NCBI RefSeq assembly: GCF_021608185.1 | Contig: NZ_JAKIHN010000001.1 | Span: 62,001 to 126,000, forward strand | DNA: 64,000 bases | Source of the DNA: Flavobacterium anseongense | GTDB taxonomy: Bacteria; Bacteroidota; Bacteroidia; Flavobacteriales; Flavobacteriaceae | Reading direction: 5' to 3' | In this document: positions 6,198 to 12,243 of the stretch, piece by piece | Layout of the letters: each line of letters starts with the position of its first letter | Numbering within the stretch: the stretch's first letter is position 1 | Translations under genes and position numbers: made by a program | The notes under the pieces: model-generated | Seen by the model: the letters and a program-made list of their open reading frames with translations, nothing else | The model's database searches: none | Told to the model about the DNA's origin: nothing

Positions 6198-6224
6198 AAA
6201 AAACCATCCTTTTTGGGATGGTTT
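6198..6224 (-). terminator. intrinsic terminator of the 6257 gene
   Basis: The 8-bp stem AACCATCC / GGATGGTT with a short loop is followed on the minus strand by seven T. It lies ~30 bases beyond the lipocalin-like gene stop, and on the plus strand it is also T-flanked. Confidence 0.8.
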
Positions 6225-6256
6225 TTAACTATTCTTTATTCATTTTCATATCCTCA

Positions 6257-6718
6257 TTAATTCTTTGTAAAGACCAAAACATCTGTTCCGCCATTTCCAC
6301 CGCTCACATCAATCAAAGAGATTGTTGTTTCTGTATGACTAACGACATCCCAATCATCGGTTAAATCGGCAAAATCGACCGGAGTTGTGAACGCAATATT
6401 AAAATCTAAATCACTGCTTGGATTATCATCGTTACTGTCGTCTGAAGTTACCGACCAAGTTCCGGTGTAAGTGTTGGTTCCGTTTGTTGCAGTCAATACA
6501 TTTCCAGTAGCAAAGGTGAAATTATATCCTGTAAAATGATTGGTTTCATCAGTTCCTGAATCTATGTAACTGGTAACTCTCCATGTGCCACTTCTAGCCG
6601 TATTAATCACCGGTGTTGGGTCAGAAGAAGATGAGCTATCATCATCTGAGCTACACATTGAAGCGACATTCAACATAAAAAGGCAAAACAATCCCGGAAT
6701 TAAAATTAATTTTTTCAT
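6257..6718 (-). CDS. lipocalin-like lipoprotein, single domain
   Basis: A 153-residue protein when started at the ATG of MKKLILIPG. The longer frame adds 16 hydrophilic residues before a complete signal sequence and is unlikely. A cysteine near residue 22 is followed by Ser-Ser-Asp-Asp-Asp, the acidic flavobacterial surface-export signal for lipoproteins, although the residue before it is Met, which is unusual for a lipobox. The mature part is a small beta-barrel-like domain (SGTWRVTSYIDSG...GYNFTF...GTWSV...ISLIDVSG...LVFTKN). It is clearly homologous to the C-terminal domain of the lipoprotein at 7090. It is preceded by a GTAGGGT-N15-TGTTCT element and is a likely target of the neighbouring ECF sigma factor. 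The ligand is unknown. Confidence 0.75.
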   Translation of the reverse strand: MKKLILIPGLFCLFMLNVASMCSSDDDSSSSSDPTPVINTARSGTWRVTSYIDSGTDETNHFTGYNFTFATGNVLTATNGTNTYTGTWSVTSDDSNDDNPSSDLDFNIAFTTPVDFADLTDDWDVVSHTETTISLIDVSGGNGGTDVLVFTKN

Positions 6719-6769
6719 ATTTTTTAGTTTTTGGTTTTTAAAATTTTGTTTTGAGTGCGACCTCATTTA

Positions 6770-6798
6770 TAGAACAAAAAAAAAACAGAATACCCTAC
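6770..6798 (-). promoter_or_regulatory. candidate ECF sigma promoter (copy 1)
   Basis: Minus strand: GTAGGGT (6798-6792), 15 bases, then TGTTCTA (6776-6770). The ATG of the lipocalin-like gene is about 50 bases further on. The same two elements with identical spacing occur at 8148-8176 and 8744-8772. Confidence 0.6.
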
Positions 6799-6854
6799 TC
6801 AGAAATTCGAAATTTCCGGAAAATTTTCTGCCCTATATTTGATAAAGAATGAAA

Positions 6855-6881
6855 ATAAAAAAACCAGCACAATGGCTGGTT
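6855..6881 (-). terminator. terminator of the 7090-6909 operon
   Basis: The stem AACCAGC / GCTGGTT with a 6-base loop is followed on the minus strand by seven T. It lies ~28 bases beyond the stop of the 55-residue membrane protein gene. Confidence 0.75.
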
Positions 6882-6908
6882 AAAAAGTCTTTTAAAATTG
6901 TTACTGAC

Positions 6909-7076
6909 TTACAAAGTAAATTTTAAGATAAAGAAAATCACAAAAAAGATTAAACCCCATATCAGAAACTGATTTACAAAATAATTAATTCTTGCTTTTT
7001 TGTTTGAGGCAATGCTTTCTGAGTTATCCTTGAAGTTTTCTTGTTGATTTAAAAACTTCTTATGAAATAATTTCAT
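6909..7076 (-). CDS. small single-span membrane protein (55 aa)
   Basis: The frame opens with ATG 13 bases after the stop of the 7090 lipoprotein and ends with TAA just before a terminator, which supports translation as the second gene of that operon. The N-terminal half (MKLFHKKFLNQQENF..., residues 1-34) is charged and hydrophilic. Residues ~35-55 are one hydrophobic helix (FLIWGLIFFVIFFILKF). The protein would therefore be anchored with its basic N-terminus in the cytoplasm and a very short C-terminus outside. I know of no family for it. Its place next to an ECF/FecR system makes it a candidate member of that regulon. Confidence 0.65.
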   Translation of the reverse strand: MKLFHKKFLNQQENFKDNSESIASNKKARINYFVNQFLIWGLIFFVIFFILKFTL

Positions 7077-7089
7077 TTTCAGTTTTAAT

Positions 7090-8121
7090 TTAGTTTTTTG
7101 TAAAATTCAAATAGTGATTATCACTTCCGTCACCGCTTTCATCTTTTAATCTTATGCTGGTAGCTGTAAACTCAAGTACTTTCCAACCTTCTTCCATTTC
7201 ATCTAAAGCAGAACCATCAAAATGTAAATCAAGTCTATGATAACCACCACTTTCATCATGTATGTCCCAATCTCCATCAGTAATAATACTGTTTTTTATC
7301 GCAGTACAATTTCCGTTAGGATTAAAAGTAAAATTATAACCATTGTAATAATTCGTTTGGTCATTACCATCTCCGTAATAATACGAAACATACCACGAAC
7401 CACTGGTCAAAACATCTGACAAGATTAAAGTTCCTGAGCTTGTACTACTACAATCATCGATGACACTTTCTATGGCTGACTCGAGTTGGGAATTATTGGC
7501 TACAGTAATAGTATCACCATCCGAATTGGTTAAAGTTATCGGGAACACAAATCCAACTATTTCGCCATCTATCAAATTATTTACAAAAGTATAGAGCTGA
7601 TTATCATTCTGCAAAGTGACAGAACTTGCCACCTGATTATTAGAATTATAAATGTTAATTGAAATCGGATAATTAAAATTAATACAGGAAATGTTATGAT
7701 AAAGACTATCATCTCCGTATTCTGCAAGGATAGTTTCAAATTCTGTTTCGTTTGCTACATCATGTTCCTGATAATTTGGATAAACAATCGTAATAGGAAA
7801 ACCGAAGTGAACTATATCATCATCAGTACTGCTCAGATTTTTTATATCCTGAACTGTTTGAAAATCTGCGGCCGAAATCACATAAACATATTGACCATTA
7901 ACCGTAACGTGTGCCGGTAATTTTATACTGCAATTACTTGTTCCGTCTAAAACATTATCGTCGGTTGTTTCATATTGAGAAACTCTGGAAATAAGTGATG
8001 TAATTGGTGATGATTTTGCAAAACTGTTTTGAGTATTAAGTCTAATAGTTTCTGTTTCGTCCTGACACGAAAAAAAAGCTAACACGAACAAATAAGGCAA
8101 CAATAAATAACTCTTTCTCAT
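7090..8121 (-). CDS. multi-domain surface lipoprotein with C-terminal lipocalin-like domain
   Basis: A 343-residue protein when started at MRKSYLL. The longer frame adds 14 residues in front of a complete lipoprotein signal. The lipobox is LAFFSC with Cys at about residue 19, then Gln-Asp-Glu-Thr-Glu. The N-terminal ~200 residues hold two related ~80-residue units. Each runs from a Cys through a HFGFPITIVY or VGFVFPITLT strand to ANETEFETIL or ANNSQLESAI and looks internally duplicated. Residues ~235-343 are a domain homologous to the whole mature protein of the 6257 gene (GSWYVSYYYGDG, GYNFTF, ending LNFTKN). It is divergent from the ECF sigma gene and preceded by a GTAGGGT-N15-TGTTTT element. 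Function unknown; binding of an extracellular ligand is plausible. Confidence 0.75.
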   Translation of the reverse strand: MRKSYLLLPYLFVLAFFSCQDETETIRLNTQNSFAKSSPITSLISRVSQYETTDDNVLDGTSNCSIKLPAHVTVNGQYVYVISAADFQTVQDIKNLSSTDDDIVHFGFPITIVYPNYQEHDVANETEFETILAEYGDDSLYHNISCINFNYPISINIYNSNNQVASSVTLQNDNQLYTFVNNLIDGEIVGFVFPITLTNSDGDTITVANNSQLESAIESVIDDCSSTSSGTLILSDVLTSGSWYVSYYYGDGNDQTNYYNGYNFTFNPNGNCTAIKNSIITDGDWDIHDESGGYHRLDLHFDGSALDEMEEGWKVLEFTATSIRLKDESGDGSDNHYLNFTKN

Positions 8122-8147
8122 AATATCATAAGCACTTTTGACGTAAT

Positions 8148-8176
8148 TAAAACAAAGTTGCAATAAAAAACCCTAC
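8148..8176 (-). promoter_or_regulatory. candidate ECF sigma promoter (copy 2)
   Basis: Minus strand: GTAGGGT (8176-8170), 15 bases, then TGTTTTA (8154-8148). The ATG of the lipoprotein gene follows 26 bases later, giving a short untranslated leader. Confidence 0.65.
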
Positions 8177-8225
8177 TTAGGAAAAAAAAATTAAATTTAA
8201 ACTCTCGAAAAATTCAAAAAAATAA

Positions 8226-8747
8226 ATGGAAGAAACCAATTCTAATGGCATCTGTGAAGAATTAATTTTTTCAGGTTTTTTTAAAGCTAACGTAAAATCA
8301 TTGCGAAATTACTTGTATTTCAAATTTGGAAACGAGGAAAAGGCCAATGATATTACTCAAGATTCCTTTATAAAGCTATGGGAAAACTGTAAAAAAGTAC
8401 CTTTAGAAAAAGCCAAATCCTATCTATATACTATTGCTAACAATGCTTCATTAAATGAAATAACACATCAAAAAGTAGTTTTAAAATACGCACAAAACAA
8501 TACAGGCAATGACAAGACTAACTTGAATCCGGAATATTTGTTGGAAGAAGAACAATTCAAACAAAAATTGGAGAAAGCAATAGATAAACTAACCGAAGCA
8601 CAACGAACTGCCTTTCTTTTGCACAGAATAGAAGGAAAAAAATACCACGAAATTGCAATTATGCTCGATATCAGTGTTAAAGCAGTTGAAAAAAGAATTC
8701 ATGGCGCATTAGTTTCTCTGCGAACAGAAATCGAACAGTTCAGGTAG
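8226..8747 (+). CDS. ECF-type RNA polymerase sigma-70 factor
   Basis: A 173-residue sigma factor with only regions 2 and 4. Region 2 contains the core-binding helix DITQDSFIKLWEN (about residues 39-51) followed by the SYLYTIANNASLNE helix. Region 4 has LTEAQRTAFLLHRIEGKKYHEIA and the helix-turn-helix LDISVKAVEKRIHGAL. No extra N- or C-terminal domain is present. The next gene encodes a FecR anti-sigma factor and the third a TonB receptor. This is the standard cell-surface signalling order in Bacteroidota, in which ligand uptake at the outer membrane releases the sigma factor. Its stop codon TAG is embedded in a GTAGGGT promoter-like sequence. It is divergent from the lipoprotein at 7090. Confidence 0.95.
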   Translation: MEETNSNGICEELIFSGFFKANVKSLRNYLYFKFGNEEKANDITQDSFIKLWENCKKVPLEKAKSYLYTIANNASLNEITHQKVVLKYAQNNTGNDKTNLNPEYLLEEEQFKQKLEKAIDKLTEAQRTAFLLHRIEGKKYHEIAIMLDISVKAVEKRIHGALVSLRTEIEQFR

Positions 8748-8772
8748 GGTTTTTAAAATTTAAAATGTTTTT
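8744..8772 (+). promoter_or_regulatory. candidate ECF sigma promoter (copy 3), before fecR
   Basis: GTAGGGT at 8744-8750 overlaps the sigma gene stop. After 15 bases comes TGTTTTT at 8766-8772, and the fecR ATG is 6 bases further on. If used, transcription would begin near the first ATG, so translation would be nearly leaderless or use the second ATG at 8788. Confidence 0.5.
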
Positions 8773-8778
8773 AAACAA

Positions 8779-9687
8779 ATGAATGCAATGGAAGAAAATT
8801 ACGAATTAGCAAAATGGTTGGCCGGTGAAATGTCTGAAAAGGAACTAAAAACTTTTCAGGAAACTCCGGAATATGCAACTTACGCCAAAATTGCGGCCTA
8901 TTCAAGTCAGTTGAAAGCTCCCGATTTTGATGCTGATTTGTTATATCAAAATACCATCGAGCATAAAAAATCGGCACCAAAAGTTATTCCGTTTTATCAA
9001 TCGAAATGGATGCGAATTGCTGCTGTTTTTATGGTTTTGCTTGGTTTGTCTTTATTCTTCAGAACTACAATTACTTCAACAGAAGTTGCCGAGAACGGTC
9101 AGAAAACAACTTTTTCTTTGCCTGATGATTCGCAAATTGTTTTAAACAGCGGTTCTCAAATTCAATACAAAAAATGGAATTGGGATAACAACCGTAAACT
9201 GAATTTAGATGGTGAAGCCTATTTTAAAGTAGCGCACGGAAAGAAATTTCAAGTCAATACCACTCTCGGAACGGTTACCGTTTTAGGAACGCAATTTAAT
9301 GTCAAAGCCCGAAAAAATCGCTTTGATGTAACTTGTTACGAAGGAAAAGTAAAAGTAAACTACAGCAATAAAGAAGTAATTATAACCCGAGGAACTTCGG
9401 TAACTTTTGACAACGACTATTTCGATAGAAAAAATATTACGGTTCAAAAACCCGAATGGACAACCAATGAAATAGTTTTTCAAAAAGAAAATCTTCAAAG
9501 CATTGTTGATGAATTACAAAGACAATACGGTTGTGAAATTGTCCTAAACTCTAAAGAAAACGCGCAACTTTTCACCGGAACCTTACCAACAAATGATATT
9601 AAAACAGCTTTAGATGCTGTGTGTTCTATATTTCATTTAAAAATTTCTAAATTTGATAGCAAGAAAATTATTCTAGTGGATTTTTAA
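8779..9687 (+). CDS. fecR: FecR-family anti-sigma factor
   Basis: A 302-residue inner-membrane anti-sigma factor. Residues 1-75 form the cytoplasmic sigma-binding part, which starts with the conserved YELAKWLAGEMSEKEL helix. Residues ~77-94 are a single membrane helix (WMRIAAVFMVLLGLSLFF). The periplasmic FecR domain follows (about 100-200: FSLPDDSQIVLNSGS, LDGEAYFKVAHGKKF, VLGTQFNVKA, YEGKVKV). The C-terminal ~70 residues are the DUF4974/STN-like module that contacts the TonB receptor. An alternative ATG lies three codons in. The stop overlaps the ATG of the TonB receptor gene by one base, so the two are translationally coupled. Confidence 0.93.
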   Translation: MNAMEENYELAKWLAGEMSEKELKTFQETPEYATYAKIAAYSSQLKAPDFDADLLYQNTIEHKKSAPKVIPFYQSKWMRIAAVFMVLLGLSLFFRTTITSTEVAENGQKTTFSLPDDSQIVLNSGSQIQYKKWNWDNNRKLNLDGEAYFKVAHGKKFQVNTTLGTVTVLGTQFNVKARKNRFDVTCYEGKVKVNYSNKEVIITRGTSVTFDNDYFDRKNITVQKPEWTTNEIVFQKENLQSIVDELQRQYGCEIVLNSKENAQLFTGTLPTNDIKTALDAVCSIFHLKISKFDSKKIILVDF

Positions 9688-12209
9688 TGTCTGTCAAAAA
9701 AAAACTCTTTTCATTACTTCTTTTTTTCTTTTTTTTGTTTGCTCATGCACAACAGGAGAAAGGGCTTTTTCCATTAAAAGTAATTTTAGATGAAATCAGT
9801 ACTCAACATCAAATCAAATTCAATTATATTGACGAAGAGTTAATTATCTATCAAATTGCTCATCCAAAACCAGACTTATCACTTGCTGAAAAAATTATAT
9901 ATATCGAATCCAAAACCGGATTGAAAATCAAAAAAATCAGCGAAAGTTATTATTCCGTTTACAATAATCAAAAGTTAGACAAACCGCTTTGTGGTTATTT
10001 GGTCGACTCTGAACTTGGTCTTCCTGTTGAAAATGCCACTATTAAAATTCTGAAGGATAATGTCAGTGTTTTTTCAGATGAAAAAGGCTATTTTGAATTA
10101 CCGCTTATTTCTGCCAATGCCATTGAAATATCGCATTTAAACTTTGAAAAAAAAGTAATTCCACCAACCGAATTATATGTTTTAGGCTGCCCCAAAATAA
10201 AGCTTGTTCCTTTAGTTCAAAAATTAGATGAAATAGTTACACAGCGTTATTTAACAACGGGAATTTCTGTAAAACCAGGCGGATTACTCGAAATTAAACC
10301 CCGCAAATTTGGAATCTTACCCGGATTAATTGAACCCGATGTTTTTCAAACTATGCAACAAGTTCCGGGTATTATCAGTGTTGATGAAACTATTTCAAAT
10401 ATCAATGTTCGCGGCGGAACGCATGACCAAAATCTTTTTCTTTGGAATGGCATCAGGATGTTTCAAACAGGGCATTTTTTCGGATTAATATCGGCTTTCA
10501 ATCCTTCACTAGCCCAAACCATTTCTATTACCAAAAACGGTAGCTCAGCTTTTTTTGGCGAAAGCGTTTCTAGTTTGGTCGATATTTCATCTAAAACCAA
10601 TACAATTGAAAAAACCAACAGCAGTTTTAGCAGCAATCTTATCAGTGCCGAATTATATACCAAATTAAAGGTTTCCAAAAATGCCAACCTTACTTTGTCC
10701 GCAAGACGTTCACTTACCGATTTTTTCAAAACGCCGACTTATCGAAATTATAGTAACAGAATCTTTCAAAATACCGTTATCACTGACTTAAACACTAATG
10801 AAATTGTTGATTACAAGAGCAATGTCGAATTTTATTTTTATGATGTTACTACACAATTTCAGCAAAAAATTGGTCTAAAAAACGAATTGAATATTGATGT
10901 TATTGCTATAGAAAACACACTAAAATTCAATCAATCCACATCTGATTTGAACAAAAATAGCGCTTTGGAACAGGAAAATTATGGCGCCACCATCCGATGG
11001 AAAACCAATTGGAATACAAAACACAATACTGAATTTAAAGGTTATTTTTCGAACTATGATTTGAATTCAATAAACGAAACGCTTGAAAGCAATCAGATTT
11101 TGACTCAAAAAAACTTAGTTCTTGATATCGGATTTCAAGTTAGAAATTCAAATGTAATATCAAATAAAATCACTCTTAATTCCGGCTATCAATTCAATGA
11201 AATAGGTGTTACTAATTTTGATGAAATTAACCTTCCATTATTCTCAAGAAATATTAAAAATGTATTGTTGACACACGTTGGCGTTGTAGAAGGTGTTTTT
11301 GAAACCGAAAATAAAAAGACATTTTTCAGAGGCGGTTTGCGTGCTAATTATTTCGAGAAATTCAGTTTCTTTCTTGTAGAACCGAGAGTACAATTCAATC
11401 AGGCATTGACATCTGTTCTGCGTTTGGAAATTTTGGGTGAGCAAAAAAACCAGACACTTTCTCAGGTTATCGATTTGCAGCAGGATTTTTTGGGTGTAGA
11501 AAAACGAAGATGGACATTGGCTAACAATTCAACAATTCCCATTCAAAAAAGCAATCAGGTTTCCTTGGGTTTTAATTTTAAAAAGAATAATTGGCTCATA
11601 ACTCTGGATAATTTTTATAAAAAAATCACAGGAATTACCAGTAACAGTCAGGGTTTTCAGAATCAATTTGAATCGGAAAAAGCAGTTGGCGAGTATCAGA
11701 TTATTGGCTTAGAATTTTTGATTCAAAAATCTTTTAATCAATTTTATACTTGGCTGAGCTATAGTTATAATGACAACAAATATACTTTTGACCAATTATC
11801 GAGTACTTCTTTTCCTAACAATTACGATATTACACATGCCTTTTCCTGGGCCGGAATTTATGAATGGAAAAAACTAAAATTAGCTTTGGGAGCCAAATGG
11901 CATAGCGGAAAACCGATTACGACACCAACGTCATTTACAGTATCAAATACTAATCCGGTAATTAGTTATAATTCGCCTAATAATTCCAGATTGAAGGATT
12001 ATTTTCAGGTTAATTTTTCAGCTTCTAAAGACTGGAAATTTAAAGATACTATGACTTTGCAAACCTCGTTATCGGTTCTGAATCTGCTCAATACCAGCAA
12101 TAGTCTGAATCGTTTTTATAGAGTAAACACTGCAGACAACTCGGTAGAAAGCGTTGATACTTATTCACTTGAAATGACACCAAACTTTAATGTAAAGTTC
12201 AGTTTTTAG
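9687..12209 (+). CDS. TonB-dependent outer membrane receptor with N-terminal signalling domain
   Basis: An 840-residue protein with a signal peptide ending FAHAQ (residue ~21). A secretin/TonB N-terminal short (STN) domain follows (about 25-90), which in FecA-like transducers passes the ligand signal to FecR. Next come a carboxypeptidase-regulatory-like domain (about 95-180: LCGYLVDSELGLPVENATI...FSDEKGYFELPL), a plug domain (about 205-305: QQVPGIISVDE..., NVRGGTHDQNLFLWNG) and a 22-strand-type barrel to the C-terminal Phe. No SusD partner is adjacent, so this is not a polysaccharide utilisation locus. The substrate is unknown; with two lipocalin-like lipoproteins beside it, uptake of a small ligand is plausible. 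A terminator follows. Confidence 0.92.
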   Translation: MSVKKKLFSLLLFFFFLFAHAQQEKGLFPLKVILDEISTQHQIKFNYIDEELIIYQIAHPKPDLSLAEKIIYIESKTGLKIKKISESYYSVYNNQKLDKPLCGYLVDSELGLPVENATIKILKDNVSVFSDEKGYFELPLISANAIEISHLNFEKKVIPPTELYVLGCPKIKLVPLVQKLDEIVTQRYLTTGISVKPGGLLEIKPRKFGILPGLIEPDVFQTMQQVPGIISVDETISNINVRGGTHDQNLFLWNGIRMFQTGHFFGLISAFNPSLAQTISITKNGSSAFFGESVSSLVDISSKTNTIEKTNSSFSSNLISAELYTKLKVSKNANLTLSARRSLTDFFKTPTYRNYSNRIFQNTVITDLNTNEIVDYKSNVEFYFYDVTTQFQQKIGLKNELNIDVIAIENTLKFNQSTSDLNKNSALEQENYGATIRWKTNWNTKHNTEFKGYFSNYDLNSINETLESNQILTQKNLVLDIGFQVRNSNVISNKITLNSGYQFNEIGVTNFDEINLPLFSRNIKNVLLTHVGVVEGVFETENKKTFFRGGLRANYFEKFSFFLVEPRVQFNQALTSVLRLEILGEQKNQTLSQVIDLQQDFLGVEKRRWTLANNSTIPIQKSNQVSLGFNFKKNNWLITLDNFYKKITGITSNSQGFQNQFESEKAVGEYQIIGLEFLIQKSFNQFYTWLSYSYNDNKYTFDQLSSTSFPNNYDITHAFSWAGIYEWKKLKLALGAKWHSGKPITTPTSFTVSNTNPVISYNSPNNSRLKDYFQVNFSASKDWKFKDTMTLQTSLSVLNLLNTSNSLNRFYRVNTADNSVESVDTYSLEMTPNFNVKFSF

Positions 12210-12216
12210 TATAAAA

Positions 12217-12243
12217 AAGGTTGGAAAATTCCAACCTTACTTT
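12217..12243. terminator. bidirectional terminator between TonB receptor gene and argS
   Basis: The perfect 9-bp stem AAGGTTGGA / TCCAACCTT around a short AAAT-type loop is flanked by an A-run on the left and a T-run on the right. It therefore serves both convergent genes. Confidence 0.8.

Follow-up and report, generated by a model that had tools for sequence, protein, structure and literature searches.

In the ferric citrate system of Escherichia coli, FecI-FecR-FecA, an extracytoplasmic function (ECF) sigma factor is paired with FecR and a TonB-dependent outer membrane receptor, and fecIR is described as not autoregulated in the available text of PMC9249621. The same text describes the haem system of Serratia, HasI-HasS-HasR, as one in which the sigma factor drives the anti-sigma gene and not itself. 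For the Bacteroidetes, the accessible part of a 2020 paper lists an ECF motif for EcfO of Bacteroides fragilis and none for the ECF factors of B. thetaiotaomicron (PMC7366714), a species with 50 such factors according to the excerpted text of PMC12596196. Here we analysed a 64,000-nt stretch of the Flavobacterium anseongense genome (contig NZ_JAKIHN010000001.1, positions 62,001-126,000 of the forward strand; hereafter the window), in which a two-part motif, GTAGGGT-N15-TGTTYT, recurs around an ECF sigma gene. Like the fec locus of E. coli, this locus combines an ECF sigma factor, FecR and a TonB-dependent receptor; unlike it, with its FecI-dependent promoter before fecA, the conserved sites here stand before fecR and before lipoprotein genes. 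HasI-HasS offers a precedent for a sigma factor whose targets include the anti-sigma gene but not its own gene, although Serratia belongs to another phylum and the available text names no lipoprotein targets (PMC9249621).

The closest promoter descriptions share parts of this architecture. Putative ECF-dependent promoters of B. thetaiotaomicron SigW-1 have non-canonical -30/-10 elements with TGTT at about -10, but that motif was not significant alone, the excerpted text mentions no GTAGGGT box, and the targets include sulfatase and SusC/D-like genes (PMC12596196). In Flavobacterium psychrophilum SM6, of the same genus, ECF-type promoters were predicted from mapped starts, but these carry a CGT box in the -10 region and are associated with genes of type IX secretion. 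Compared by the textual descriptions, rather than the logos, in the available part of PMC9723704, no motif among the six reported corresponds to GTAGGGT/TGTT. No description of a GTAGGGT-N15-TGTTYT promoter was found in the open-licence literature searched, and one may exist elsewhere.

We propose that GTAGGGT-N15-TGTTYT(A) is very probably the promoter recognized by the ECF sigma factor encoded at 8226-8747 (+ strand), within a FecI/FecR-type system that would drive lipocalin-like lipoproteins together with its own anti-sigma/receptor operon. Four kinds of comparative evidence point this way: a fixed spacer, fixed positions, co-occurrence with the sigma gene, and matched motif changes in sister clades. 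The motif occurs three times in the window and never in 100 dinucleotide shuffles of it. Copy 1 (6771-6798, - strand; TGTTCT) precedes the gene of a lipocalin-like lipoprotein, copy 2 (8149-8176, - strand; TGTTTT) that of a larger lipoprotein, and copy 3 (8744-8771, + strand; TGTTTT) precedes fecR, its GTAGGGT overlapping the sigma stop codon at 8745-8747. The first-pass annotation had reported these three copies at a fixed 15-base spacing with differing gap bases; both points were confirmed, with the far ends of the copies corrected by one base. It had also placed an ECF sigma gene between the copies, and the 173-aa product indeed matches Pfam Sigma70_r2 and Sigma70_r4_2 and NCBIfam TIGR02985, the family of the Bacteroidetes group of ECF sigma factors, the last barely above its cut-off (126.8 versus 126.4 bits).

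A search of the whole genome and of related flavobacteria had been proposed alongside that annotation. The host genome (3.07 Mb) contains four exact copies and none of the pattern read backwards; the fourth (C1:168110, outside the window) lies 112 nt ahead of a gene whose 123-aa product has no Pfam family. With the second box shortened to TGTT the host total stays at four, and allowing one mismatch adds four sites against four for the reversed pattern, that is, background. A scan with spacers of 14-16 found a fifth match, with spacer 16, at C1:55915. Scanning for the sigma-70 consensus was uninformative (32 sites versus 24.4 expected).

We then compared the 80 best sigma orthologue loci from a larger collection (75 titled Flavobacterium; 1.44 Mb), with open reading frames (ORFs) called by a simple script rather than a gene finder. 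These loci hold 219 exact GTAGGGT-N15-TGTT sites, while spacers of 10-14 and 16-20 give 0-2 each. None of the 219 lies inside an ORF and 215 have a gene within 400 nt downstream; equal frequency inside genes had been named as an outcome that would refute the promoter reading. The spacer control is less clean when one mismatch is allowed (256 matches at spacer 15, 161 at 17, 38 at 11 and 7-31 at others); the spacer-17 matches probably share that -35 box, the T run being read two bases later, and by our reading 26 of the 38 spacer-11 matches would be the divergent site. Chance as the origin of the motif is ruled out by the shuffles, the reversed-pattern control and the spacer control.

The positions of the sites are equally regular. 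An exact copy is found on the fecR side in 72 of the 80 loci and before the divergent lipoprotein gene in 69, with both present in 64; both are missing in exact form from three loci, and every locus has at least one copy within one mismatch. By contrast, 76 of the 80 loci have no copy, even with one mismatch, within 300 nt ahead of the sigma gene, which argues that the lipoproteins and the anti-sigma/receptor operon are the targets and the sigma gene usually is not. A copy does precede the sigma gene in the other four loci (L122, L132, L143 and L144), which suggests that sigma autoregulation was gained or lost. A strain of F. johnsoniae also has the locus (L121). Two loci come from metagenome bins titled Bifidobacterium breve and Sphingobacterium thalpophilum (L070, L073); they are Flavobacterium-like, and their titles look like mislabelling or contamination. 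The sigma gene itself may be transcribed by the primary sigma factor: a -7 box, TAnnTTTG, was found within 150 nt upstream of it in 37 of the 80 loci versus 5.6 in simple shuffles, which is consistent with such transcription, this box being the housekeeping element in the available text of PMC9723704 and PMC7366714. No exact TAnnTTTG was seen by eye upstream of the sigma gene of the window.

Alignment of 206 distinct sites from the 80 loci and 81 from other genera revealed further promoter-like anatomy. TGTTYT is followed by A in 87% and 83% of these sites, respectively, and a purine stands 34 nt after the first G in 91% and 96%, as against 19-78% purine at the other positions from 29 to 41; bases elsewhere outside the two boxes are weakly conserved. 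This purine suggests a transcription start, which would place GTAGGGT between -34 and -28 and TGTTYTA between -12 and -6, and all three starts predicted in this way in the window (G 6764, G 8142 and A 8778) are purines. Two conserved boxes at a fixed distance could also form the operator of a DNA-binding activator or repressor, with transcription by another sigma factor. We consider this very unlikely, since the boxes are unrelated and form no repeat, their orientation to the gene is constant, the purine at a fixed distance marks a likely start, and the motif co-occurs with the sigma gene and changes in step with similarly arranged sister sigma factors, as detailed below.

The fecR copy needed separate consideration, because it overlaps the sigma stop codon and lies near a start codon. 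Among 69 of the 72 loci with an exact fecR-side site, in which a script scored the fecR start as the last ATG with the FecR N-terminal signature, the site begins between -3 and +4 relative to the sigma stop, as might be expected if the lipoprotein copies alone were promoters and the fecR copy were a by-product of the sigma coding sequence or its stop codon. That possibility appears extremely remote to us: the fecR-side copy is exact in 72 of 80 relatives, it can leave the sigma gene and stay with fecR in other genera (in G360 it begins some 140 nt beyond the final residue of the sigma alignment and 22 nt before fecR), and it is 20-27 nt from the FecR gene in 16 of 18 cases from other genera (15 and 95 nt in the remaining two). 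In 65 of the 69 scored loci the fecR ATG lies 17-27 nt beyond TGTTYT, counted from its end, and in the other four it lies 8-10 nt beyond. By this homology the fecR of the window probably starts at ATG 8788 (MEENYELAKW...), 17 nt from the box, rather than at 8779, so that the 6-base distance to the ATG, regarded in the first-pass annotation as a weak point, is largely gone.

Co-occurrence of motif and sigma factor was examined in the genus genomes. GTAGGGT-N14-16-TGTTYT is present in 92 of 150 genomes; the 14-16 spacer raised the background, and the exact spacer of 15 was used in later counts. The genome tables were typed by hand, and the totals of genomes with a match agree with the tallies (92, 125 and 50), the control columns being unchecked. 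Close sigma orthologues (at least 60% identity) are encoded by 58 of the 150 genomes, which together hold 170 sites (mean 2.93; reversed control 67, mean 1.16), whereas the 92 genomes without a close orthologue hold 59 (mean 0.64; reversed control 98, mean 1.07). At least two sites were found in 49 of the 58 genomes with the orthologue versus 17 of the 92 without it (P = 5e-16, uncorrected for kinship).

Variation among sister sigma factors is matched by variation in the boxes. Seventeen genomes have GTAGGA as the -35 box at their sigma loci, on the divergent as well as on the fecR side, and G157 and G173 are alike in this. The variable residue x of the recognition helix (S-x-KAVEKR) is T (14), Q (2) or V (1) in these 17 members and V (26) or I (4) in 30 canonical ones, a comparison that is not an unbiased sample, as the last 20 loci were chosen for carrying a motif; the residue after EKRI is Y in the GTAGGA group and H or S in the others. 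The GTAGGA sigma factors fall into one 19-row clade of a quick tree (SH-aLRT 99), together with G271, whose fecR side reads GTAGGGT. G157 is labelled canonical in this tree, a 300-nt search having missed its divergent site, while the other reads place it in the GTAGGA group. Many other residues also differ, so that the helix change was probably one event.

A second change affects the -10 box. In clade B (helix SQK), GTAGGGT or TAGGGT followed by N15-TGTC occurs at the fecR side in 9 of 11 fetched loci and at the divergent side in 8 of 11. The 20 sister loci have 18 TGTC and one TGTT site at spacer 15, and 0-3 at other spacers. Across the genus, the 16 genomes of clade B hold 39 GTAGGGT-N15-TGTCT sites (none reversed), the 12 of clade C hold 12 (four reversed) and the remaining 122 hold 31 (19 reversed). 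This count was made after the TGTC form had come to light in the sister loci, and the set counted includes them. Membership of clade B was assigned by identity, the SQK helix being seen in the 11 fetched members, and clade C was labelled by sigma kinship. Comparison by hand shows that 7 of the 12 clade C genomes have a TGTC site some 1.2-1.5 kb ahead of the sigma gene. The host itself carries a paralogous sigma system in which GTAGGGT-N15-TGTCTA (L147:2805-2832, C44) precedes the gene of a lipoprotein, some 1.2 kb upstream of the sigma paralogue. A second sigma factor of G130 (58% identical) has TGTC on both sides, and its region 2 loop is shortened and altered. Overall, the tree requires three -10 changes, with G056 and G140 left out of the count. 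By analogy with other ECF factors, the region 2 loop would read the last -10 base. The sigma series of the Flavobacteriaceae may embody a modular promoter code, a proposal to which we give an even chance: the spacer of 15 would stay fixed, the shift from GTAGGGT to GTAGGA would accompany changes in the recognition helix of region 4, and that from TGTT to TGTC would accompany changes in the region 2 loop, at the divergent and fecR promoters where both are visible. The divergent lipocalin-like lipoprotein would then be a dedicated component of the signal loop and not just one target among others.

Genomes of this group carry several related ECF sigma genes, and the sister clades share the -35 box and spacer, so that cross-talk is possible; some sites also occur in genomes without a close orthologue, and the co-occurrence test covers the genus. 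The motif might therefore be read by a different or by several ECF sigma factors, the neighbouring one not being its sole reader, a view that partly overlaps our own. We judge it unlikely, as the TGTT form is at background in the 20 genomes with only a more distant sigma relative (12 sites; reversed, 27) and it is the TGTC form that is enriched in clade B. Recognition by the neighbouring sigma factor remains our preferred explanation, and the first-pass proposal that it drives both lipoprotein genes and the anti-sigma/receptor operon gains strong comparative support.

Several observations weigh against this explanation. With the full TGTTYT pattern, two of 30 genus loci lack any site even when one mismatch is allowed. 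Of the 58 genomes that encode the sigma orthologue, 9 hold at most one exact site, some of these cases being explained by -10 variants. Related genomes are not independent, so the P values overstate the association. Among 34 exact sites in the sequence retrieved around genus matches, five fall within ORFs, none of these at the sigma locus; among 107 distinct sites read in other genera (10 genomes and further fetched loci), 12 fall within ORFs, which indicates that part of the genome-wide matches is due to chance. One of the 17 GTAGGA members keeps the old helix residue, and the helix change in that group comes mainly from one clade. Finally, the Pfam STN signalling domain was not matched in the receptor or in its N-terminal piece at E values up to 5.

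Beyond the genus, the exact motif occurs in 125 of 249 Flavobacteriaceae genomes (280 sites versus 114 reversed), and in the rest of the order (246 genomes) it stays at background (34 versus 55 reversed, counted by hand from the table). The sigma profile, which also picks up paralogues, matches 178 of these 249 Flavobacteriaceae at E 1e-35 or better. Among 30 family sigma loci fetched by score, 29 were readable; GTAGG-N17-TGTT, which represents the same boxes with the spacing kept, is present on both sides in 27 and on at least one side in 29. In L235, L236 and L238, from other genera, the nearest divergent ORF, 244-284 nt from the site, is of DUF6438 type (one by Pfam, the others by eye, and a nearer gene may have been missed) and takes the place of the large lipoprotein. 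One genome picked for its high count (G366) has 26 GTAGGGT-N15-TGTT sites versus one reversed; three of them share a strand over about 600 nt (L273), and two precede short ORFs judged transposase-like by eye (L229).

The genes downstream of the sites encode mostly exported proteins. With Pfam run on representatives, those of the 80 loci include 77 members of the lipoprotein family to which both window lipoproteins belong (these two included), 72 FecR (window copy included), 28 PF03640 secreted-repeat lipoproteins, 18 tRNA_anti-like membrane proteins, three Rieske proteins, two DUF4382-like proteins (just below the Pfam cut-off) and the four sigma factors, as well as four ankyrin and four HxlR-like proteins recognized by eye. 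Four sites stand ahead of ffh; they may reflect chance, or serve a gene that the script missed. The 56 non-FecR proteins of other genera include eight with a type IX secretion tail, four choice-of-anchor B, two YHYH, and single matches to copper-binding, cytochrome, DUF4382, sulfatase and GldK families; several are ordinary cytoplasmic proteins and probably chance targets. A lipobox pattern was found in 30 of 53 non-FecR targets versus 32 of 263 other ORFs.

The fecR gene (8788-9687, + strand; start by homology) encodes an anti-sigma factor with Pfam FecR (PF04773) and FecR_C (PF16344) above cut-off, and a FecR homologue is found in 79 of the 80 loci. The third operon gene (9687-12209, + strand) encodes a TonB-dependent receptor with an N-terminal extension of about 100 residues ahead of a carboxypeptidase-like domain; its Plug domain scores 31.6 bits against a cut-off of 23.9, and a homologue is likewise present in 79 of 80 relatives. 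A terminator-like hairpin (12217-12238, strand not assigned) follows. The larger lipoprotein gene (7090-8121, - strand; 343 aa from ATG 8121) encodes a lipobox cysteine, Cys19, that is invariant across 32 aligned rows, and a putative C-terminal lipocalin-like barrel. Its model, built from 32 rows (mean pLDDT 83.8), has alternating strands and helices followed by a run of strands at the C-terminal domain; the top Foldseek hit is DUF4847 (4zgf, E 1.4e-3), with lipocalins among the next and none below 1e-3, and the lipocalin-type Pfam matches of the lipoproteins are below cut-off. The smaller, lipocalin-like lipoprotein gene (6257-6718, - strand; 153 aa) is taken to start at ATG 6718, since ATG 6766 would lie upstream of the predicted start at 6764. 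Its product shares 34% identity over 111 residues with the C-terminal domain of the larger one (E 3e-14), and a terminator-like hairpin (6199-6226, strand not assigned) lies after the gene. Between the two lipoprotein genes, a 55-residue membrane protein (6909-7076, - strand) is followed by a terminator-like hairpin with a T tail (6862-6881, - strand). Its earlier inclusion in the regulon holds only through possible read-through from the larger lipoprotein gene, and homologues occur in just 8 of 80 relatives.

From the conserved sequence, position and spacing of the motif and their co-variation with the sigma factor, we infer how binding, start sites, signal and feedback may be connected. By resemblance to the FecIR family, FecR would hold the sigma factor at rest, and a ligand at the TonB-dependent receptor would free it. 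The free factor would read GTAGGGT as a -35-like box through region 4 and TGTT as a -10-like box through region 2, and would transcribe the larger lipocalin-like lipoprotein gene, perhaps with the 55-residue protein, the smaller lipoprotein gene, and fecR with the receptor from the promoter overlapping the end of the sigma gene. As the sigma gene is usually not its own target, activation would raise the anti-sigma factor and receptor relative to the sigma factor, a putative negative feedback that would also rebuild the sensor.

Few ECF promoters have been defined in the Bacteroidetes, and these findings offer a precise candidate promoter with predicted starts across much of a family. They also yield a set of mostly exported candidate targets, and the three matched sigma/promoter pairs may allow specificity to be tested directly, in laboratory strains such as those of F. 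johnsoniae, at the level of single bases.
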